Below the pieces are notes generated by a model. That model saw only the letters and a list, made by a program, of their open reading frames with translations, was not told the DNA's origin and did no database searches. A stretch of 64,000 bases of DNA. Source: an uncultured Clostridia bacterium (GTDB lineage Bacteria > Bacillota > Clostridia > Christensenellales > Borkfalkiaceae). The stretch spans positions 1 to 64,000 of the forward strand of contig CANQMX010000009.1 of the NCBI GenBank assembly GCA_947625095.1. Reading direction: 5' to 3'. The translations under genes and the position numbers were made by a program. Of this stretch, positions 26,139 through 54,501 are shown piece after piece (the stretch's first letter is position 1; each line of letters starts with the position of its first letter).

Positions 26139-26175
26139 GTACTCGTAGTGTAATTGGATAACATTACGGCCTCCG
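26139..26175 (+). pseudogene. Truncated duplicate of tRNA-Arg (first 37 nt)
   Basis: Identical to nt 1-37 of the intact tRNA-Arg 240 bp downstream, ending in the anticodon loop after CTCCG. The tRNA promoter lies on this side. Confidence 0.92.
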
Positions 26176-26378
26176 CCCCGCCCGCACTCGTCGGCGCAAA
26201 CTTCGCTTTAAGCCCTTCCCGCAAACGGCAAGGGCAACTGCGCTCCGTTGCGTCTCCTCTTCCCAAAAAATCTTTGCTTCGCAAATCTTTTTCGGGAGCC
26301 CTATTGCTTACTAAGCGCGGCACGAGCGCGTAGCGCGAAGTACGCCGTAGGCGGCGGAATATAACAAAAACCAAATAT
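26176..26378 (+). mobile_element. Structured insert between truncated and intact tRNA-Arg
   Basis: No ORF of note. The part from GTCGGCGCAAACTTCGCTT to TTTTTCGGGAGCCCTATT (about 26190-26316) is clearly homologous to the insert beside tRNA-Leu at 54281-54406. It includes GGCGCAA...TTGCGTC pairing, a variable hairpin (GCCCTT/AAGGGC) and a CTTCCCAAAAAATC..TCTTTTTCGGGAG hairpin. The rest (26317-26350) is a copy of the CTTACTAAGCGCGGCAC repeat. Calling it mobile is inference. Confidence 0.6.
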
Positions 26379-26455
26379 GTACTCGTAGTGTAATTGGATA
26401 ACATTACGGCCTCCGACGCCGTCGACTCCGGGTTCGAGCCCCGGCGGGTACACCA
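26379..26455 (+). tRNA. tRNA-Arg (anticodon CCG)
   Basis: Acceptor GTACTCG/CGGGTAC, D stem GTGT/ACAT, anticodon stem ACGGC/GCCGT with loop CTCCGAC (anticodon CCG), T arm CCGGG-TTCGAGC-CCCGG, discriminator A and encoded CCA. It is complete and looks functional. Confidence 0.95.
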
Positions 26456-26495: not shown

Positions 26496-26800
26496 TTCGT
26501 CAGGGGCGAGAATCCGCTGGGTTCGTCCCGCCCGCACTATTTTCAACTAAGGGCGGCACAAGCCGTAGGCGCAGTAGCCCAGGCGGGTACCGTCAAGGGT
26601 GAGAACTCGCTGGGTTCGCCCCGCCCGCACTATTTTCGACCAAGGGCGGCACAAGCCGTAGGCGCAGTAGCCCCGACGGGTACCGTCAAGGGTGAGAACC
26701 CGCCGGGTTCGCCCGACGCGAAGCGACGCACAAGCCGTAGGCGCAGTAGCCCCGGCGGGTATCGTCACGGGCGCACTCGCCCTTTGTCCTTTCAAAACGA
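26493..26800 (+). repeat. Tandem repeat downstream of tRNA-Arg, about 94/93/79-bp units
   Basis: Units begin near 26493, 26587, 26680 and 26759 with GTACCGTCAAGGGTGAGAA-like sequence. They continue with CCGCCCGCACTATTTTCGAC, CAAGGGCGGCACAAGCC and GTAGGCGCAGTAGCCCC. The third unit lacks the CACTATTTTCGACC loop and reads GACGCGAAGCGACGCAC instead. Related copies occur at about 26315, 50520-50620 and 56440-56520. No gene is seen in 26456-26824. Confidence 0.78.
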
Positions 26801-41107: not shown

Positions 41108-44100
41108 TTATTTCACTCCTTTTTTGTTCTTTTTTATGACGATCGCCAAGCCGATCAAAGTCATGACACTGGCAAGCGATATGCCCGCCGCGGTCAAAAG
41201 TATCGTCATATAGGGGATGCCTTCCACGGTAAATACATACTCCGAAAGTCCGTCCGCCTCGAACACGACGTAATCTCCGTCCCGCCTGAAATTGACGCTT
41301 GCCAATCCTTCCGCGGCGGCAAATGCGCTGCCGTCGCCGCCCTGCGTGTAGCTGACGTTCTGCGCTCTCGCTCCCGTCAGCGCCATGAGTTCGAAGTTTT
41401 TATCTCTGAATTCTTCGGGGATGAGAAGCCGCACCGTCACCTTCCCGCCAAAGGGAACTTCCTCGCCGTTTCTGTACATCTTCACGGCATATTTTTTGGA
41501 GATCACGTCCTCCTCCCACGCCAAATATTTGCGTGAAACGTCCTCGATTTTTTCCACCACAAGTTCGAGAGTGGGGTCGAAGCCCTCCGCGCTGTCGAGG
41601 GTGACCTCCGCATTGCTGCTGCCGCTGCTGCCGCTGCCCGCTTGCGGCTCGCTCTGCGTGTACGTCCGCAAAATGGTGAGCGTCGCCTCCTTTTGGGCGA
41701 ACACAACGCCGTTCGGGTTGCGGAACAAGACAGTCACGGTGTAGATATTCGGCTCGGTCTGCCCGTTGTTTTCATAGGACACCGTCGCGCCATACCGAAG
41801 TTCTCCCGCTATGAAGATGCTATGCTCTTCGCCGTCGTACTTCACGGTCACGTCCTCGAAGGTGATCCCAAACAGGCCTTCGCTCACCTCTATGATCGTC
41901 AAGACCGCCGTCTTGGAAGGAATGGGGAAGTAATTATGCTCGTCCCCCGTGAAGTTCGCCGTCACGGTGTATTCGTCGACTGCCGTCTGCGCGTTGCCCG
42001 TATAGTTCACCTCCACGCCCTGCGGAAGCGCGCCCTCGATCTCGATGCTGTGCGCTTCGCCGTCAAAAATGACGGTATAGCCGGTAAACGTCACGCCACC
42101 CATATCATAAGTGGCCTGCGTGATGGTGAAGGTGCGCAAAATATCCGCCGTCTCACTGTCCGTCCACTTGTAGTTTTTGCTGTCCGTGAGGGTGAGTTTG
42201 ACGGGATAATCGCCCACGATCGTTCCGCCGTCGTTTTCGGCGGTGTAGAGAGCGGAAACCTCGATATCCGCCGTCTGCGTCGTGCCGTTATACACCTTGC
42301 TTGCGATCGTCGGCGCGGTCACGGTCGCTTTTTCGACGGTGTACGGTTGCGTTGTCGTGCTCTCTTTGAGCGTGTAGTTCCCCGTCTTTGCATCCTTGCT
42401 ATCGAGCGTCGCCTTAAAGATGTAACGCCCCGCGTCCATGAACGTCTGCATGGCATCGTTCAATGCGACCAAAAGCGTAAACGTGCCGTCGGTGCCGATG
42501 CCCGCCGCAGTCGCCGTGGGAAGATCGGTAAACGGCGTACCCGTGTAGGTATAACTCTCACCGCCCCACTTGACTTCGATCTCTTTCGCGCGCACCGTGA
42601 GCGTTCCCTCTTTGTAATCAAAGGCGTAGTTGTCCGCGGAGAGACCGCTCAGCGTGATTTTGTAATCGCCGACGTTCTCAAACGCCGCATATCCGCCGTA
42701 ATCGAATTCCACCGTACCGCGGACGACATCTTGCAGTTTCTCGCCGTTCACAAACCCCTTGTACTCCACGCCGTCGTTGGAAGGCGCGTCGCCGTAGGTA
42801 ATCTCCTTATCCCTCGCCGTCACGGCGAGCGTTGCTTTATGAATGATGAAGTTGAACTTCAAATCGTCGGTGCTCTCTTCCGAATCCGCCCACATATAGT
42901 TATTTTTGTCGTTGAGCGCAATGATGACGGTATAGCCGCTCTCGTTGGCGTTCGTCTTTTTGTTGCTATCGTCCTTTACGCCGAAGTGCGCGCTTCCTCC
43001 GCCGACGACGTTGTACGTCTGTTCAACGCCCGTATAGGTAAATTTTGTCGTATCCGCGGTGGGCTTTTCGACCGTCGCCTTTTCGATCGTAAACTCTATC
43101 GTCGCGGCTGTGCCTGCTTTCAGTTTATAGTTGCCCGCCTGCGCGCCGCCGAGGGACAGCGTGACGCTGTATTTGCCCGCAAGCGTGGGCATTTTTGTGC
43201 CGCTCGGGAACGGCGACGAACTATCGTTCGGCGTGCCGCTGTAAGTGAGAACGGCCTCCACGACGTCGCCCGACAAGATTTCTTCGAGGTTCGCTTCGTA
43301 CGTTCCGACGATATCATCGTAAACCAACCTGCTCGGCTCGGAGAATGTGAACGGAACTTCCTTCGCTTCGATTTCGAACCGGTGCGTTTCGGAGATCTCC
43401 GCATAATTCTCGCCGTATGCGGCAACGGTCGCCGTCACAATATAGATGCCCACGTCTTTGGGCGCATTTTCGCCGAGACTGTCGCCCGTTGCCGTGGAAT
43501 AGGTGATTTTCACCTTGCCGAACGTCGCCTCGGCGGTGGCGGTATGCGCCGTGCCGTCGTACGTCCACTTCCATTCGTCGGGCGTTCCGACCGTAAACCC
43601 ATTGATCGTGAGTTTTGCCTTCCAAGTGTTTGTACCCGTGGTGATATGGTAGGTTTGGCTTGTTCCCGAAATGATAAAGTTCTTGGCGCGCGTCTCGTCT
43701 TGCGGCTTGACTTTTGCCTCGAAGGTGTACTCGCCGACCGTAACAAATTCCCCGCCCTTGGGGCTTGTCATCTCGACGGTGAACGCAAACGCGGCCTCTT
43801 CCGCAATGCCCGTCTGCGCCGTCGCCGTGGGGAATACCGCTTCGCCGAACACATAGGAATAACCGACCTCACTTCCCGACCATTCAACGGTGATTTCCGC
43901 GCACTCGATCTCGAAGGCGATCTGTCCGTTGCTCTCTATCTCATAGTTATCCGCCATATCGCCCGTGAGGCTGCTCACCTTCACTTGGTAGTTCTTGCCG
44001 GCGTGTGTGGGCATCGTATCTCCCGAAACGGTCGTGCCGTCGTACGCCGTTCCGCCGAATTCCAACACGGGGCTAACCTTGCCCTCGTCGCCGCGCACCA

Positions 44101-47100
44101 CACCCGCGAAGGACACGGTGAAGTCGCCGAACTCCTGCCCGTAGGTAAGGTTGTTGGGCGGCGTGATCGTCGCCGTAAGTTTCGCGCGGTCTATCGTAAA
44201 CGACTGCGATGTGTCGCCCGTCAGCGTATAGTTGCCCGCCTTCGCTCCGTCAAGGGCCACCATCACGCTGTAATTTCCTGCAAGCGTGGGCATGGATTGG
44301 CTTTCGGGGAAGGAAGAGCCGTTGTTCGCCGTGCCGCTGAACGTGAGGATCGCCTTCACCTCGTCGCCGTTCACAATGCCCGCTCTTTCGCCGACGCCGC
44401 CGAATTCCGCCCCAAACGTCCCGATGTTCCCATAGGTATGATAGGTTGGAATGGCGATCGTAACCGTGATTCTGCGCTGCGCGACGGTAAAATTCTCCGC
44501 CTCGCTTTCAAATGTGACGGTATAATTGGTAATATCCACCTTCGCGGCGGTCACCTTGTACTTCCCCGCGTCCGTGCTCGATGTATAGCCGCCGAAATCA
44601 AACGCCGCCGCCTCTTTTGCCTCGGCGAGGATAGCGTCTTTGTTGTCCCTCGTCGCAAGCCCGCTTTGGTAGGTAAGCGTCACATTGTTCTTATCCACAT
44701 TCTCGCCGTACTCGACGCTCGCCGTCACCGTGACCGTAAGATCCGCCCGTGTGATCTCCAACTTCCCTTCAAACTCCCTTTGGGCGGTTTCGTTGCCGTC
44801 CCACCACTTGTAGTTCTTGTCATCGGAAAGTTTGAGCGTCACGTCATATATCCCAACGTCCGTGCCGCCGACATCCTTAACTATGGTATATAGGGAATTG
44901 GTAACGCCCCAATGCTGCTCCGTCCCGTCATACGTTACGGTCTTTTTCTCCGGCTCAGCCACGGTATCCTTTTCTACGGTGATTTTTTGCGTGGGGTTGG
45001 AAATATTATAGTTTTTCGCAAGGTCGCCGTCGATTGTCGCCTTGAACTGATACGCGCCCGCGTTTTTAAGTATGCCGCCTGCGCCTTCCGGTTGGCTTTC
45101 AAAGCTCACCGTAACCGTCAACTTATCCTCGCCCACGCCCGTTGCCGTCGCCGTCGGCGTAACAAAGGCAGCGGCCTTGTAAGTGTAGCTATCCAAAATG
45201 TTGTTCCATACAACTTCTATGGATGCCACTGTAATTTCATATTGGTGGGTTTTGTCCTCGTTTTTCAACTTATAATTCTTGTCGTGGGCACTATCCACCT
45301 TTATATCGAACGTATACTTTTCCACATTCCTGAACGGCGTTTCGCCCTGCACGGTCACGACAAGTTGGATCGCACCGCCCTTGGCGTCCTCGCCCACGCC
45401 GATAAAGGTCGCAGTGGGGGAAATTTCCTCGCCCCGATAGATGAAAGTCTCGTCTCCCCAATCCACGGTCGCGATCTCCCGCGGTGTAATCTCGATCGTC
45501 TTTGTGTTTTCGCTCACGCTGAACGTATAATTCTTTTCATAATCCTTGGGGAGCGTCACCGTAAAGGTGTAGGTGTCGACGTTCCTGAACTCGGAAGCGC
45601 CGAGAAGAGAGGTCATCTCCACATGGAGGCTGAGCGTGCCGTTGTCGCCGTCTCTTGCCGCGCCCTTTGCCGTGGCGGTGAGTTTGGTGAACGCCGCCCC
45701 CTTGTAGGTGTAATCCTTCTCTTCGCCCACCCATTCGAACTCGGCAATATCCATCGGCGAGATGGTGAACTCTTTGGTCGCCGAACATTCAGAATAGTTG
45801 ACTGTGCCCGCGAGGTACGCCTTCACCCAATATGTGCCCGCGTCGGTGGGCTTTTCGTCATAATACGTCCCCGATTGATTCTCATCATGGGTATAGGTAA
45901 ACTTCACCTCGCCCGCTTCGCCGAATTTCGGCGTGGCGGAAGGCGTGCCCCCCTCTTCGCCGTAAGTCCATCCCGCAAGGGTAACCTCGCCGTTAAAACT
46001 GTTCGTCGCCCGCTCGATTTTAAGCAAATATGTGGCGGTGTTGGAAAGGGAGAAGTTCACCGTATCATAAGTTATTTCAATGTTGCCGCTATAATCGCCC
46101 ACGTCCGCATTGTCCGTTGAAATATCCGCCACGGTGAACGGGGAAGAGGTAACGCCCACGGGCGCATACACGATAGACAATCCCTTCACCTCATCGCCCG
46201 CGACTTTTAATTCACCGCCGTCGTAAGGCTTGCTTTGCTCAAACTTGCCGCTCACGGTGATCGTCGCCTGTCCTATCGTATAGCTTTGCGTTTCTCCCGT
46301 GGAGATCGTGTAGTTTCCCGCCGCGTCGCCGCCGAGCACCGCCGTTGCGCTATGCGTACCCGCATCGATGTTGTCGGTTTCGTTCACCTTAACGGAAAGC
46401 CGCGCGGCCGTCCTATCCACTTCGGGGAGATCCGTCGGAAGTTTGGGCGTGGGGGCTTGGTGTTTGCCGTTATAAATAAGCCCCTCCACGTTCTCCCATA
46501 CAATGGGAATGCTCTTCGGCGAGATGGTGGCTTTATAGCCGTCTTTTTCAAAACTCGGCGTATAGTTGTCCGCCGCAGTGCCCTTCAAGGTCACGGAGGC
46601 AACGGTCACGCTCTTATTTTTTCCCGCGTCGGCGCTATCAAAGGTCGCAGTGATTTTGTCCACGTCCACATCGTCGCTGCCGATTCTGCCCGCGCCCGCG
46701 TCGATTGCGCCCGCCGTTACGGTGGCGGTCGTTGTCCCGTCGTATTCCTTCTCCTGCGCCGTGAGCGTAATTGTAAGCGGGGCTTTCTCGATTTTCCCCT
46801 TCGCGGGCGAGGCAGCCGTGCCATATTCGCCGAGGGAAACATTATAATTCCCCGCCGCGACGCCTTTGAGGGTGATATCGCTCACGGTTACCGTTATGTT
46901 CTCGCCCGCGTTGGCGCTCGCATAGGCGGCCGCATAACTTTCAACTTCCACCCGTCCCGCGGTCTCATCCGAACCCTGATATCCCGTAAACGTAAACGTG
47001 ATTGTGGGGTCATCGACCTTGCCGTTATAGGTTTTATCCTCAACCTTTGCCTCGCTCACCGTAAGCGTCGCCTTTTCAATGGAGAATTCTTGGTTTGTCC

Positions 47101-50100
47101 CGTTGTCAAGTGTATAGTTGGCGCTCTTGGGCGTTACGCTCGCATAATATGTCCCCACGTCGGTGTGCGCGCCCTCCACGGTGACGTCGTTCAGCTCTAC
47201 CGTTCTCCTTTGCTTGTCCGTAGCCTTGGGCGAGGGCTGCTGCGCCGCGCCGTTATAGATAAAGTTGGTAGGGCCCCAATTTACCGTCACGCTTTGCGGC
47301 GTTATGGTGAACGTCGTATTGCCGCCGCTAAGCGTATAGTTGCGCGTGTGGGTGGCGGGCAGGGTGGCCGTAGCGGTGTAAGTCTTTCCGCCCGTGTTGG
47401 CGTTGATGGCCTGTCCGCCCGTGAGCCCGTCGCCCGAAACGCCCACTTCAAGGGTGATAGTCTCGCCAACGCCCGCGATTTGGGCTTGGGGGGTATGCGC
47501 CGAGCCGTCATACTCAAATTCCTTACCCTCCCATCGAATGTCGCTTGCGGAAAGGGTCTTGGGCGAGATCTTAAACGCCGCGGTGCACTCGATCGCCTCG
47601 TAGTTATTTTGGGACGGGTTTTTCGTGCTCTTGGAGGCGGGAACGCTCGCCTTCACGTAGTAGTCGCCCGCGTCGGTTGGCTTGCTGCCCAACTGCGCAC
47701 CGATGCTGCCGCCGCTGCTGTTATAATAGGTATACTCCACGCTGCCGAACGTCGCCTCGGCGGAAGGCGTGCCCCCCTCCTCACCGTACTCCCACCCCGC
47801 AAGGGAAACCGTGCTCTTCCATGTGTTCGTCGCCTTGGTTATCTCAAATGTCAGCGTTCTATCGTTGGTATCGTGGGTATCCGCCCACACATAGTCATCT
47901 TTATTTTTGAGCGAAATAATAACGTTGTACGTTCCGACGTCCACCCCGCCCTTTCCGCTGTTCTCTTCCGTGACCGTGTACTCAGCGCCTGTTATGCCCG
48001 AAGTCAGCCAACCCCCGGTGTACGTTTTGGAGGCGGGCGCACTCGGCACTGTTACGGGTGTTGCGAATGTTCTGTTGATAGCGGTAAGATTGAGGTGGAT
48101 CGCCGGGCGCACCCCGTAGGGGCTAATCACCATCTTATAGTATTTGCTGTCGTAAGTGTAGTCGTAACTGCCCGAAGTGTTAAGATAATACGCCCCGTTT
48201 GCCATCCAATAATCGCCGGAGCGAAGCCAACAATACTTGAACCCCTGTCCGTGCGTATTATCCGTACTCCTGAGGAAAGCATCGGTGACCCAAAGGCCAT
48301 TATTGCCACTTCCGTCTTTGATGCCCGTTTCTACCACGGAGGGAAGCCACACATAGTCGTCTTTCCAATCCCCGTATTTTGCGCCTTCCATACGGTCGCC
48401 GTCTTTAGAAGCATAGTTGATACTATCTCTATACCACTCGCCGCCGGACTTCGGCGCTTCGTATGCGTCATTGGGAAAATAGTAATTACCTCTAAGGTAA
48501 AATGCATCTATCAGTGCCCTATTCCATTCGTCCGCTTGGTAGCCCACCTCGGAGGGCTTGGCAATGTATGCCGTCAAACTGTCGGCGACGCTTTCCATTG
48601 TAAAGCGGGCGTATTGGTTTTCAGAACTCTGCGGCGTTACATCGACAAGTTCGCTATTTTTCTTATCCGCAGTCAATTTCGACATATATCCGCCCGCATT
48701 TAATGCTTCCACGCGTATTTTGCTGATAGAATACATATTGGAGGGGTAGGTAAAAGTATCCGAACTACTATCAGACCAACCGTTGGAATAACTTGATTCG
48801 TCCGTCGATTTGAGATCGTCCGCCGAACGCCACAAATCGAGAATAACGTCGCCGTTCTTCGCTGTGGTGAGGTAGGTAGCGTCCCACTTCACCCCGCCAA
48901 ACCAAACGGAGACGTTTCGTCCGCTTTGTGTGCGGAAATCGGCGGAAGTCTTGTTTGTGCCTGCCGCCGTCTTTATGCCTGTAAATGTTTCCTTGCCCGT
49001 GAGAGACTTATAGAGCGCCTTTAAGTTGTCGGCGTCAAAGCCTTTGCTCCCGTCGTTGTAAATTTCGCCGATCGTCTTTCTTTCCGCGCTGCTGTTCGCC
49101 GCGGACAAATTGAGGTGCAGCGCCGGACGCGCAAAGTTTGGATCGGATGATGTTTTATTCGACCAATCGGCATGGTCACTGGCACCTTCATTGACGCCCA
49201 TAACGAACGTAAAGAAGTATCCGTAGGTAACGTATGGCTCATCACTGCAATAGCCGGAACGAAACCAAAACCAAGCCTCCCCTTCACTTCCGGCACTTCT
49301 TATAGAGATATCGGTATTCCATAAACCCGTGCCAGCAGCGCTACAGCCCGCTTCGGTGACGGAGGGGATCCATAAATAGTCGTTTTGCCATGCGCCGTAC
49401 TTCGCTTCCTCCAAACGTTCATCATCTCTGTTATCGTTATAAAGGTTGTTATACTCGGCGTCAAACCATTCTCCGCCGCTGATTGGCGTATCATAAGCAT
49501 CGTTGGGAAGATAATATTTTTTACCTTCGTTGTGTACTTGTTTATTTATATCTGCCGCCGTATCTTCATCAAATTCATTCGCTTGGTAGCCCACTTCGGA
49601 AGGCGTGGCAATGTAATTTATCAAACTACTCTTGCCGTTGCTGTCCTTCCCTGCCATGGTAAAGCGGGCGTATTGGTTGTTGTTATCTTGCGCCTGTTTC
49701 GCCCCTAATTTGTTTTTTGAGGTTAAACAATATCCGCCCGCATTTAAGGTATCAACGCGAAGTTTACTCGTAGAGTACATATTGGCGGGGTAAGTGTCGT
49801 TAATATCTGTGCGCTCGGCATCCCACTCAAGGAAACCCACCTTTTCTGTTGACACATTGTCGGCGGATTGCCACAAATCCAAAATTACATTGCCTGATTT
49901 ATCTTTTGTGAGATAGACCGCGTCCCACTTCATCCCGCCGAACCAAACCGAAACGTTATTTCCGCTATTGACTACACGAAAATCGGCGGAGGTCTTATTC
50001 CCGCCTGCCGCCGTTTGCACATCCGCAAAGGTCGCCCCCGTTTTGCCCGTGAGCGCCTTGTAGAGTTCATTTAAGTTATCTGCATCAAAGGCATCATTTT

Positions 50101-50269
50101 TATCGTTGTAAATTTCGCCGATATTCGTCCACGCCGTTGTGCTCCGCGCCGCGTCCGCCGTCTCCCGTGCGGGCAAAAATGCCAAGCCGACGGCAAGAAA
50201 AACCGCCATCACCGCCGCCAGCGCGCCGATGACCTTCTTTTTGATGCCCCGCGTCATGCCGTTCGCCAT
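41108..50269 (-). CDS. Giant repetitive surface protein with MBG/YDG domains
   Basis: About 3053 residues. A signal-like segment (GALAAVMAVFLAVGLAFLPA, about 13-32) precedes two homologous N-terminal modules of ~310 residues each. They share GEIYND...FDADNL, NKTSADFR, VSVWFGGxKWDA and a C-terminal RPA(L/I)HLNL, a DUF6273/C-type-lectin-like pattern. Then come about 25 MBG/YDG-type beta domains (motifs YNG, YTYKGA, AGNYT, DAGTY) to residue ~2850. The end is a membrane segment plus lysines (LASVMTLIGLAIVIKKNKKG) with no LPXTG motif. The start is uncertain: ATG 50269, 50257 and several upstream ATGs to 50422 are in frame, and a G9 tract lies between them. Confidence 0.82.
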   Translation of the reverse strand: MANGMTRGIKKKVIGALAAVMAVFLAVGLAFLPARETADAARSTTAWTNIGEIYNDKNDAFDADNLNELYKALTGKTGATFADVQTAAGGNKTSADFRVVNSGNNVSVWFGGMKWDAVYLTKDKSGNVILDLWQSADNVSTEKVGFLEWDAERTDINDTYPANMYSTSKLRVDTLNAGGYCLTSKNKLGAKQAQDNNNQYARFTMAGKDSNGKSSLINYIATPSEVGYQANEFDEDTAADINKQVHNEGKKYYLPNDAYDTPISGGEWFDAEYNNLYNDNRDDERLEEAKYGAWQNDYLWIPSVTEAGCSAAGTGLWNTDISIRSAGSEGEAWFWFRSGYCSDEPYVTYGYFFTFVMGVNEGASDHADWSNKTSSDPNFARPALHLNLSAANSSAERKTIGEIYNDGSKGFDADNLKALYKSLTGKETFTGIKTAAGTNKTSADFRTQSGRNVSVWFGGVKWDATYLTTAKNGDVILDLWRSADDLKSTDESSYSNGWSDSSSDTFTYPSNMYSISKIRVEALNAGGYMSKLTADKKNSELVDVTPQSSENQYARFTMESVADSLTAYIAKPSEVGYQADEWNRALIDAFYLRGNYYFPNDAYEAPKSGGEWYRDSINYASKDGDRMEGAKYGDWKDDYVWLPSVVETGIKDGSGNNGLWVTDAFLRSTDNTHGQGFKYCWLRSGDYWMANGAYYLNTSGSYDYTYDSKYYKMVISPYGVRPAIHLNLTAINRTFATPVTVPSAPASKTYTGGWLTSGITGAEYTVTEENSGKGGVDVGTYNVIISLKNKDDYVWADTHDTNDRTLTFEITKATNTWKSTVSLAGWEYGEEGGTPSAEATFGSVEYTYYNSSGGSIGAQLGSKPTDAGDYYVKASVPASKSTKNPSQNNYEAIECTAAFKISPKTLSASDIRWEGKEFEYDGSAHTPQAQIAGVGETITLEVGVSGDGLTGGQAINANTGGKTYTATATLPATHTRNYTLSGGNTTFTITPQSVTVNWGPTNFIYNGAAQQPSPKATDKQRRTVELNDVTVEGAHTDVGTYYASVTPKSANYTLDNGTNQEFSIEKATLTVSEAKVEDKTYNGKVDDPTITFTFTGYQGSDETAGRVEVESYAAAYASANAGENITVTVSDITLKGVAAGNYNVSLGEYGTAASPAKGKIEKAPLTITLTAQEKEYDGTTTATVTAGAIDAGAGRIGSDDVDVDKITATFDSADAGKNKSVTVASVTLKGTAADNYTPSFEKDGYKATISPKSIPIVWENVEGLIYNGKHQAPTPKLPTDLPEVDRTAARLSVKVNETDNIDAGTHSATAVLGGDAAGNYTISTGETQSYTIGQATITVSGKFEQSKPYDGGELKVAGDEVKGLSIVYAPVGVTSSPFTVADISTDNADVGDYSGNIEITYDTVNFSLSNTATYLLKIERATNSFNGEVTLAGWTYGEEGGTPSATPKFGEAGEVKFTYTHDENQSGTYYDEKPTDAGTYWVKAYLAGTVNYSECSATKEFTISPMDIAEFEWVGEEKDYTYKGAAFTKLTATAKGAARDGDNGTLSLHVEMTSLLGASEFRNVDTYTFTVTLPKDYEKNYTFSVSENTKTIEITPREIATVDWGDETFIYRGEEISPTATFIGVGEDAKGGAIQLVVTVQGETPFRNVEKYTFDIKVDSAHDKNYKLKNEDKTHQYEITVASIEVVWNNILDSYTYKAAAFVTPTATATGVGEDKLTVTVSFESQPEGAGGILKNAGAYQFKATIDGDLAKNYNISNPTQKITVEKDTVAEPEKKTVTYDGTEQHWGVTNSLYTIVKDVGGTDVGIYDVTLKLSDDKNYKWWDGNETAQREFEGKLEITRADLTVTVTASVEYGENVDKNNVTLTYQSGLATRDNKDAILAEAKEAAAFDFGGYTSSTDAGKYKVTAAKVDITNYTVTFESEAENFTVAQRRITVTIAIPTYHTYGNIGTFGAEFGGVGERAGIVNGDEVKAILTFSGTANNGSSFPESQSMPTLAGNYSVMVALDGAKAGNYTLTGDTSQSFTIDRAKLTATITPPNNLTYGQEFGDFTVSFAGVVRGDEGKVSPVLEFGGTAYDGTTVSGDTMPTHAGKNYQVKVSSLTGDMADNYEIESNGQIAFEIECAEITVEWSGSEVGYSYVFGEAVFPTATAQTGIAEEAAFAFTVEMTSPKGGEFVTVGEYTFEAKVKPQDETRAKNFIISGTSQTYHITTGTNTWKAKLTINGFTVGTPDEWKWTYDGTAHTATAEATFGKVKITYSTATGDSLGENAPKDVGIYIVTATVAAYGENYAEISETHRFEIEAKEVPFTFSEPSRLVYDDIVGTYEANLEEILSGDVVEAVLTYSGTPNDSSSPFPSGTKMPTLAGKYSVTLSLGGAQAGNYKLKAGTAATIEFTIEKATVEKPTADTTKFTYTGVEQTYNVVGGGSAHFGVKDDSNKKTNANESGYTVIIALNDKNNYMWADSEESTDDLKFNFIIHKATLAVTARDKEITYGDAPSNDGVEYKGFVNGEKLQDVVRGTVEFDYGGYAAFENVGDYKITLSGLSADNYAFDYKEGTLTVRAKEIEVKWGGESYTYTGTPFTDLPTATAAGIGTDGTFTLLVALNDAMQTFMDAGRYIFKATLDSKDAKTGNYTLKESTTTQPYTVEKATVTAPTIASKVYNGTTQTADIEVSALYTAENDGGTIVGDYPVKLTLTDSKNYKWTDSETADILRTFTITQATYDMGGVTFTGYTVIFDGEAHSIEIEGALPQGVEVNYTGNAQTAVDEYTVTANFTGDEHNYFPIPSKTAVLTIIEVSEGLFGITFEDVTVKYDGEEHSIFIAGELRYGATVSYENNGQTEPNIYTVTVLFRNPNGVVFAQKEATLTILRTYTQSEPQAGSGSSGSSNAEVTLDSAEGFDPTLELVVEKIEDVSRKYLAWEEDVISKKYAVKMYRNGEEVPFGGKVTVRLLIPEEFRDKNFELMALTGARAQNVSYTQGGDGSAFAAAEGLASVNFRRDGDYVVFEADGLSEYVFTVEGIPYMTILLTAAGISLASVMTLIGLAIVIKKNKKGVK

Positions 50270-50278
50270 GCCGCCTAC

Positions 50279-50320
50279 CGTATAGCAACGTACCCCCCCC
50301 CGTTGCACTTCCTTTGTCAA
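50279..50320 (-). promoter_or_regulatory. Poly-G (G9) region upstream of the giant surface protein
   Basis: On the minus strand TTGACA (50315-50320) is followed by AAGGAAGTGCAAC, G9 (50293-50301), TACGTTGC and TATACG (50279-50284), then ATG after 9 nt. GTGCAAC/GTTGC can pair across the G tract. If TATACG is the -10 box, an 18-nt spacer contains the G9, but its -35 (GTGCAA) is poor. If translation starts further upstream, the G9 is inside the coding frame. Either way length change would alter expression. Confidence 0.45.
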
Positions 50321-50429
50321 TGCAGGGCGCACACCCTCGGTCTCTCTCTTATTTTTTCTTCTCATTCTCATTCCCTCTTTTGTCCTCTTTCCCATCCCCT
50401 TTTGTCCTTTCGCCCCTCGCAAGGGACAC

Positions 50430-54165: not shown

Positions 54166-54194
54166 AAAACAGCCCCTATTGGGGCTGTTTTTTT
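54166..54194 (+). terminator. Terminator of the two-component operon
   Basis: AACAGCCCC-TATT-GGGGCTGTTTTTTT. It also abuts the 3' end of the convergent tRNA-Leu and may serve both. Confidence 0.88.
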
Positions 54195-54280
54195 GGTGCG
54201 AGTAATCGGATTTGAACCGATATGGGATCTCTCCCGAAAGATTTTAAGTCTTTTGCGTCTGCCGATTTCGCCATACTCGC
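54194..54280 (-). tRNA. tRNA-Leu (anticodon TAA)
   Basis: Acceptor GCGAGTA/TACTCGC with discriminator A and encoded CCA. Anticodon stem AAAGA/TCTTT with loop CTTAAAA. A long class II variable arm (CGGGAGAGATCCCAT) and T arm ATCGG-TTCAAAT-CCGAT complete it. Confidence 0.95.
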
Positions 54281-54406
54281 ATATTAAATTGTATTGGGCT
54301 TCCGAAAAAGATTGCGGAGCAAGATTTTTCGGAAAAAGGAGGCGCAACGGAGCGCACTTGCGCTTTTTTGCAGAAAAAGCGCTCGAAGCGGAGTTTGCGC
54401 CGACGC
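54281..54406 (-). mobile_element. Structured insert between truncated and intact tRNA-Leu
   Basis: Read on the minus strand it runs CGTCGGCGCAAACTCCGCTT ... GTGCGCTCCGTTGCGCC ... TTCCGAAAAATCTTGC ... TCTTTTTCGGAAGCCCAAT, then ~15 nt to the intact tRNA. It aligns along its length with 26190-26316 beside tRNA-Arg. Outer pairing GGCGCAA/TTGCGCC is kept. The inner hairpin is GCGCTTTTT/AAAAAGCGC here but GCCCTT/AAGGGC there. The second hairpin (CTTCCGAAAAA/TTTTTCGGAAG) also covaries. Confidence 0.62.
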
Positions 54407-54432
54407 GCGTCTGCCGATTTCGCCATACTCGC
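54407..54432 (-). pseudogene. Truncated duplicate of tRNA-Leu (first 26 nt)
   Basis: Identical to nt 1-26 of the intact tRNA-Leu 152 bp downstream in transcription direction. It stops at the start of the anticodon stem. The promoter TTGACA-17-TAAAAT lies on this side. Confidence 0.92.
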
Positions 54433-54472
54433 ATAGAATATGAAATTTTCTCAAACTCACGACTTCGTGAAC

Positions 54473-54501
54473 ATTTTATCCTCTTTCACGGCATTTGTCA
54501 A
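54473..54501 (-). promoter_or_regulatory. Promoter upstream of the truncated tRNA-Leu copy
   Basis: TTGACA (54496-54501), a 17-nt spacer, and TAAAAT (54473-54478). Transcripts would pass through the truncated copy and the insert before the intact tRNA. Confidence 0.8.

Follow-up and report, generated by a model that had tools for sequence, protein, structure and literature searches.

In the 64,000-nt stretch of Clostridia DNA analyzed here (the window), the intact tRNA-Leu(TAA) gene is preceded by an incomplete second copy of its own 5′ end, which raises the question of how this copy arose and what kind of DNA separates it from the gene. Along the minus strand, a −35 element TTGACA (54496–54501) and, 17 nt past it, a −10 element TAAAAT (54473–54478), both read directly from the sequence, are followed by a leader of 40 nt; a matching promoter was found by alignment at the equivalent place in the relatives G020 and G008. 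The tRNA-Leu copy comes next (nt 1–26; 54407–54432), is 26/26 identical to the gene, and adjoins a repeat core of 111 bp (54296–54406), which consists of a CGTC tag, a stem P1 with an inner hairpin P2, CTCC and a hairpin P3. A 15-nt tail (54281–54295) separates the core from the intact tRNA (54194–54280; ARAGORN), and a terminator-like hairpin, also read directly, lies 3′ of the tRNA (54168–54193). This arrangement of promoter, exact 26-nt 5′ copy, insert and intact gene had been proposed in a preliminary description of the window and was borne out. By local alignment, the direct repeat at this locus (L001), of which the tRNA piece is the left copy, is 29/29 identical, and its right copy begins 12 nt past the core.

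The preliminary description had also claimed that the insert is homologous to one located at tRNA-Arg(CCG) in the same window, and indeed the two cores align at 81% identity (E 1.1e-21). A structure model of 112 positions and 31 pairs was built from 42 copies. In the tRNA orientation, the order is the CGTC tag, P1 around hairpin P2, CTCCT, hairpin P3 and GAGCCC, giving a branched two-domain fold of ~112 nt with two hairpin domains. In this 42-copy model, 93.3% of the cells are paired, compared with a shuffled mean of 81.1%; the covariation score is 0.317 against a shuffled mean of 0.109, with 0/500 shuffles scoring as high, and double changes occur in 21 of the 31 pairs. The previously noted hairpin change from GCCCTT/AAGGGC to GCGCTTTTT/AAAAAGCGC is present and belongs to this family-wide covariation. 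Seen from the strand opposite to the tRNA orientation, the sequences of the symmetric internal loops are GGA/GGA and GA/GA, and one P3 pair, an A-C mismatch in 11 cases, becomes G-U in these; such features hint that the opposite strand might be the folded molecule.

Using the model, we found the core in 58 of the 61 genomes of the genus (E 0.001) and in 75 of 200 genomes drawn from the order (E 0.0001). The collected loci contain 247 unique core matches, 204 of which have a complete tagged edge; the other 43 were excluded from all counts of 204. The tag lies ahead of stem P1 at model positions 2–5, where C, G, T and C are present in 200, 202, 203 and 202 of the 204 copies, respectively, and in 199 of these copies, which were chosen for having the edge, the tagged edge begins at model position 1 or 2. 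Rfam holds no family for the core and detected only tRNAs in the window; at the tRNA-Leu locus, the tRNA alone reached its cut-off, with no group I intron, T-box or other family. One scan of viral contigs with an exact 24-base piece of the core gave no match, and a literature search of open-licence papers returned no report of the core family. The records of the nearest relatives are rabbit-gut genomes (CANRAR01 and CANRFK01), with Candidatus Gallimonas more distant, and the host is a Gallimonas-like lineage of gut Clostridia. The window also contains, at 41108–50422 on the minus strand, a 3104-residue open reading frame that contains many similar repeats and a hydrophobic C-terminal stretch and is probably a large surface protein.

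In some copies at tRNA 3′ ends, P2 is swapped for the tRNA's own terminator, which speaks for hairpin exchange. At the tRNA 3′ ends of L203 (minus strand from 793), L280, L281, L266 and L274, P2 is replaced by a terminator-like hairpin followed by a T-run, and in L203 the same terminator region recurs after the core.

The tRNA-Arg locus, on the plus strand, turned out to be composite. The 37-nt copy of the tRNA-Arg(CCG) 5′ end (26139–26175) is followed by a 12-nt left piece of a second repeat, R2 (26176–26187), by the second window copy of the core, which is nested in R2 (26188–26301), by the right piece of R2 (26302–26357) and by the intact tRNA (26379–26455; ARAGORN). The copy is 37/37 identical but stands 12 nt away from the core because the R2 piece intervenes. 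As R2 is split by the core, with 12 nt on its left and the remainder on its right, the breakpoint at nt 37, which had been ascribed to the same type of insert as that at nt 26 of tRNA-Leu, belongs to R2 and not to the core. R2 is a palindromic repeat found at 26176–26358 and 26500–26700 of the window, in tandem after tRNA-Arg, with ~30 further partial matches in the genome, and the core is inserted into its loop at several places. Its hairpin reads GCGCGTAGCGC in G000 (window 26302–26357) and GCCCATAGGGC in the close species G008 (L064), a compensatory change. Between G000 and G008, the core (114/114) and the 37-nt copy (37/37) at tRNA-Arg are identical, compared with 14/25 for the leader ahead of the copy and 268/300 for the upstream neighbor gene. 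This identity may reflect function and selection or recent exchange.

The exact boundary between tRNA copy and core at tRNA-Leu was recovered at many other sites when the flank before the core was locally aligned with the DNA after it. Among 197 testable copies (7 of the 204 had too little flank), 52 showed a direct repeat ending 0–1 nt before the core, compared with 0/204 random places in the same loci and 10/186 junctions displaced by 60 nt. The duplication measures 18–82 bp in 41 of the 52, and the longer ones include tandem units. It is 69/69 identical at an RNase P RNA gene (L177), where it includes the gene's terminator, 49/49 at tRNA-Leu (L110), where it comprises 23 nt of leader plus nt 1–26, and 43/43 at tRNA-Pro (L046 and L207); duplications that are perfect or nearly so speak for recent insertion. 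Several of the 52 duplications, and of the 39 cases used below for the inverted copy, are orthologous loci or tandem units, and the independent target classes number ~8–10. It had been claimed that the duplication was generated at the target rather than carried by the element. Given that the copy matches the local tRNA, that the element is common to both window sites, and that repeats were found in 52/197 copies against 0/204 random places, this remains the best explanation.

Genes of folded RNAs are strongly preferred as targets. A tRNA piece lies at the tagged edge in 99 of the 204 copies: 33 at the tRNA 3′ end after CCA, 17 antisense against the mature 5′ end, 30 inside the tRNA in sense and 19 inside it in antisense orientation. 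In the comparison with controls, such a piece was present in 95/199 copies but in 0/199 shuffled and 0/199 reversed flanks; stretches located 100–190 nt rightward gave 15/188, many of them containing intact tRNAs. One similarity query had included the tRNA-Leu half and over-samples tRNA-Leu. Among the loci chosen by the model (L099–L233), whose 132 copies are the best-scoring among the matches listed, the piece was found at the edge in 56/132, and in 21/132 an end of an intact tRNA is no more than 5 nt away. The preliminary description had asked for examples at further tRNA genes, and many were found.

Of the 94 loci with no tRNA piece, 60 were passed through Rfam. These loci yielded RNase P RNA (9), THF riboswitches (5) and tmRNA (2), as well as tRNAs, the L10 leader and 6S RNA, the last three in some loci and away from the core. 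At RNase P RNA, 4 copies lie inside the gene and 9 others are 166–363 nt from its end. The edge is within 3 nt of the aptamer 3′ end in all five THF loci, and of the three copies at tmRNA loci, one directly adjoins the 3′ end of the RNA. Remaining loci, inspected by eye, include loops of R2 as well as sites with no assignment. Breakpoints near the anticodon arm, proposed from the two window loci, are therefore not the rule, since the core is also found at tRNA 3′ ends, at mature 5′ ends, at RNase P RNA and at the ends of THF riboswitches. To our knowledge, it is unusual for bacterial mobile DNA this small to prefer the genes of tRNAs, RNase P RNA, tmRNA and riboswitches. By eye, the cores of L126, L054 and L225 apparently lie antisense at the 3′ end of a protein-coding frame and are possibly in-frame insertions, which are known for Rickettsia palindromes.

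A second, inverted copy of the target is associated with many duplications. Of the 52, 39 could be examined for such an arm (13 have no tail or no target continuation), and in 25 of the 39 the tail carries an inverted target copy spanning the breakpoint (score ≥9), which starts 1–11 nt past the core. When tails were paired with another target class, an arm was scored in 26/1184. The DNA beyond the right and the left copies does not contain the arm (0/36 and 0/37), so it is a separate copy. Arms were found at tRNA-Pro, tRNA-Leu(TAA), tRNA-Leu(TAG), RNase P RNA and five other sites, and they follow their own target: L044, located at tRNA-Leu(TAG), carries the TAG version. In the tRNA-Leu arms the anticodon loop is inverted, reading TTTTAAG for CTTAAAA, and the copy is therefore truly inverted. 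Part of the arm signal could nevertheless come from palindromic targets, because the targets are often hairpins themselves (tRNA arms and other hairpins): at the same score, a 50-nt target matched its own complement in 21/39 cases, and across the breakpoint in 10/39. Comparing the hairpin arms of left and right flanks alone gave a modest signal (36/186 at score 9, compared with 9/372), and testing the intact target across the breakpoint gave a clearer one. The window copy at tRNA-Leu has no inverted arm in its tail (arm score 5). Upstream of tRNA-Leu in L203, a hairpin GACGCAAGGGA-TTTTAAG-TCCCTTGCG with inverted anticodon loop stands with no core beside it. Neither a duplication nor an arm is seen in most of the 50 copies located at tRNA ends, which may represent a second mode or worn remains.

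Since the duplication ends exactly at the core and the inverted arm spans the breakpoint, a long target-site duplication is the best reading of the tRNA copy. We consider it reasonably likely that the insert is a small non-autonomous mobile palindromic repeat with a CGTC tag, whose tagged end joins folded-RNA targets and duplicates a piece of them. This reading builds on the observed repeat family with its paired structure and tagged edge, the target preference, the duplication ending at the core and the inverted arm. The tagged end would join the target strand at one precise point, preferably in genes of folded RNAs, and insertion would duplicate a target piece to give the order target piece, core, tail and intact target; at tRNA-Leu, the 5′ end would have been duplicated and the downstream tRNA left whole. 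A single insertion event would produce duplication and arm together, most likely through copying from the target 3′ end in contact with an uncut target copy, by target-primed or template-switching synthesis, and a distant second break would set the length of the duplication. The precise joint and the mirror copy of the target beside the scaffold give a concrete picture of insertion.

The arm was either copied from the uncut target or brought along as a guide. The latter, which we regard as doubtful, would make the element a folded scaffold with a variable stretch that is complementary to the target on both sides of the insertion point, possibly RNA-guided. The element, in the form of RNA or single-stranded DNA, would be steered to its site by the variable stretch, 1–11 nt from the core; copying of the scaffold from the CGACG end would be primed by the target 3′ end, and a distant second nick would give the long duplication. 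If true, this would be a non-coding bacterial mobile element that homes to folded-RNA genes.

In the target-joining reading, the driving enzyme would act in trans. Two enzyme families were tested as candidates, and neither tracks the repeat. A Y1/REP-type transposase is too rare (Y1_Tnp in 15/61 genomes, compared with 58/61 for the core), as is a reverse transcriptase (RVT_1 in 10/61). No clear core lies beside the Y1 genes in six Y1 loci, in which the model gave a weak match at L296 (21.5 bits, E 2.7e-4) and 11.7 bits at L294.

A different origin of the tRNA-Leu copy is suggested by relatives in which the copy occurs with no core. The orthologous locus of G008 carries tRNA nt 1–41 and a fold-back, and similar core-less 5′ copies are present in G016, G025 and G021. 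In G025 (copy of nt 1–41) and G012 (only nt 26–42 left), an integrase lies 233–234 nt from the tRNA. The locus L338 (CANQAZ010000022.1, 3859–4714), orthologous to the window locus, contains tRNA nt 1–39 of the window allele, ~55 bp and a complete tRNA-Leu(TAA) of another allele, and beyond the tRNA a convergent gene that is truncated at the contig end and has a C-terminus matching PF00589 (E 2.3e-5; 24.7 bits, below the 27.1 cut-off); this is likely a mobile element swapping the tRNA of its host. In all three relatives, the integrase lies beyond the tRNA 3′ end and not between fragment and tRNA. Homology to the spacers of G025 and G012 was found for those of the core-less copies in G008 and G016 (z 8.5–13.2) and also for that of the core-bearing unit in G077 (z 3.7–5.7). 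In G016 and G077, distal units carry another tRNA allele than the proximal ones. A partial or inverted self-copy was found near 40 of 111 tRNA genes having a core within 320 nt and near 13 of 67 having none, several of the latter 13 being short inverted 3′ ends. As 5′ tRNA-Leu copies exist without the repeat, three of them beside an integrase, a second process makes similar copies there, and integrative elements also acted at tRNA-Leu and probably swapped the tRNA allele.

The window copy could accordingly be an attachment-site scar, left when a tyrosine-integrase element entered the anticodon loop of tRNA-Leu and supplied a replacement tRNA, with the repeat inserted later; the Islander catalog, in the available text of its report, counts 159 of 3919 genomic islands with a 5′ tRNA fragment (PMC4383910). 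However, RNase P RNA and other non-tRNA sites show the same duplication and arm, the core-bearing copy breaks off at nt 26, precisely where it joins the core, whereas the core-less copies end at nt 39–42, and the remaining 11 of the 12 core-bearing spacers score no higher than z 3.0 against the integrase-linked ones (controls up to 1.9). Integrative elements thus explain the core-less copies but not RNase P RNA. In view of the loci at RNase P RNA and of the exact ends, the scar is our second choice at tRNA-Leu, and an unlikely one.

Pure replication error, in which template switching at hairpins made the duplication, the arm and the core copy with no dedicated enzyme, appears very unlikely. 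Template switching at hairpins typically yields direct and inverted copies that vary in length, the targets are often hairpins, and neither Y1 nor RVT_1 tracks the repeat; random microhomology, however, would not place the edge at model position 1–2 in 199/204 copies with a near-invariant CGTC. The least probable account, a functional leader in which tRNA piece and hairpins are kept for regulation or processing of the tRNA, draws on the above-mentioned conservation at tRNA-Arg between G000 and G008 and on the fact that most copies adjoining a tRNA agree with the tRNA in their own genome, but divergence from the local tRNA is seen in some copies (G016, G021 and G063), several genomes have tRNA-Leu(TAA) without any copy (by eye; e.g. 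G019, G028, G029 and G066), and at tRNA-Pro and RNase P RNA this unit lies downstream of the gene and in the opposite orientation.

The target-joining reading invites comparison with several known systems. SINE-like retroposons, which insert by target-primed reverse transcription, have one precise end and direct duplications of variable length. The core resembles them in its direct target duplication and single precise end (52/197 against 0/204), but it is folded, tagged and accompanied by an inverted arm, and RVT_1 is much rarer than the core (10/61 compared with 58/61 genomes). Small mobile palindromes that merge and nest are also found outside bacteria, as the double-hairpin elements of fungal mitochondria. 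The GC clusters of yeast mitochondria are small mobile palindromes that merge, shuffle and nest, but, as described in the accessible portion of that work, they have flanking direct repeats of 2–3 nt, unlike the core, and are not bacterial (PMC4478555). Genomic islands in tRNA genes, as far as the text available for Islander describes them (PMC4383910), share with our loci a tRNA fragment near an intact tRNA and, in some of the relatives, breakpoints in the anticodon region; in the window, as in such islands, the 5′ fragment lies upstream, in direct orientation and on the displaced side. In contrast to islands, the window has ~126 bp and no integrase between fragment and tRNA, and the unit also occurs at RNase P RNA.

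The closest resemblance is to the CGTC-tagged REPs, which include RPE-4 and RPE-6 of Rickettsia (Di Nocera and others, 2013; PMC3733652). According to the sections of that survey at hand, they are 20–40 bp long, with a stem of 8–9 bp, a loop of 4–5 nt and an unpaired tail mostly fitting CCA; the unpaired end tag is CGTC, or in many repeats TGTC or CCTC, some dimers lie inside longer palindromes, and there is apparently no dedicated transposase. The same sections left open whether such repeats still form and what moves them. Like these REPs, the core is palindromic and dispersed and has CGTC at one end, and it may likewise lack a transposase of its own. Unlike them as there described, it spans ~112 nt with 31 pairs in a branched two-domain fold, has no CCA tail but a far end that mostly reads GAGCCC, and has folded-RNA targets, a long direct duplication and a target-derived inverted arm, in Clostridia. 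The mirror copy near the target may show how such repeats spread, and it may explain the repeats found inside palindromes, the palindrome being partly made on insertion, yet 10 of the 39 targets have a breakpoint hairpin of their own. As the tag fits and the size, loop and tail do not, the core is a palindromic repeat of the CGTC-tagged kind with a new anatomy.
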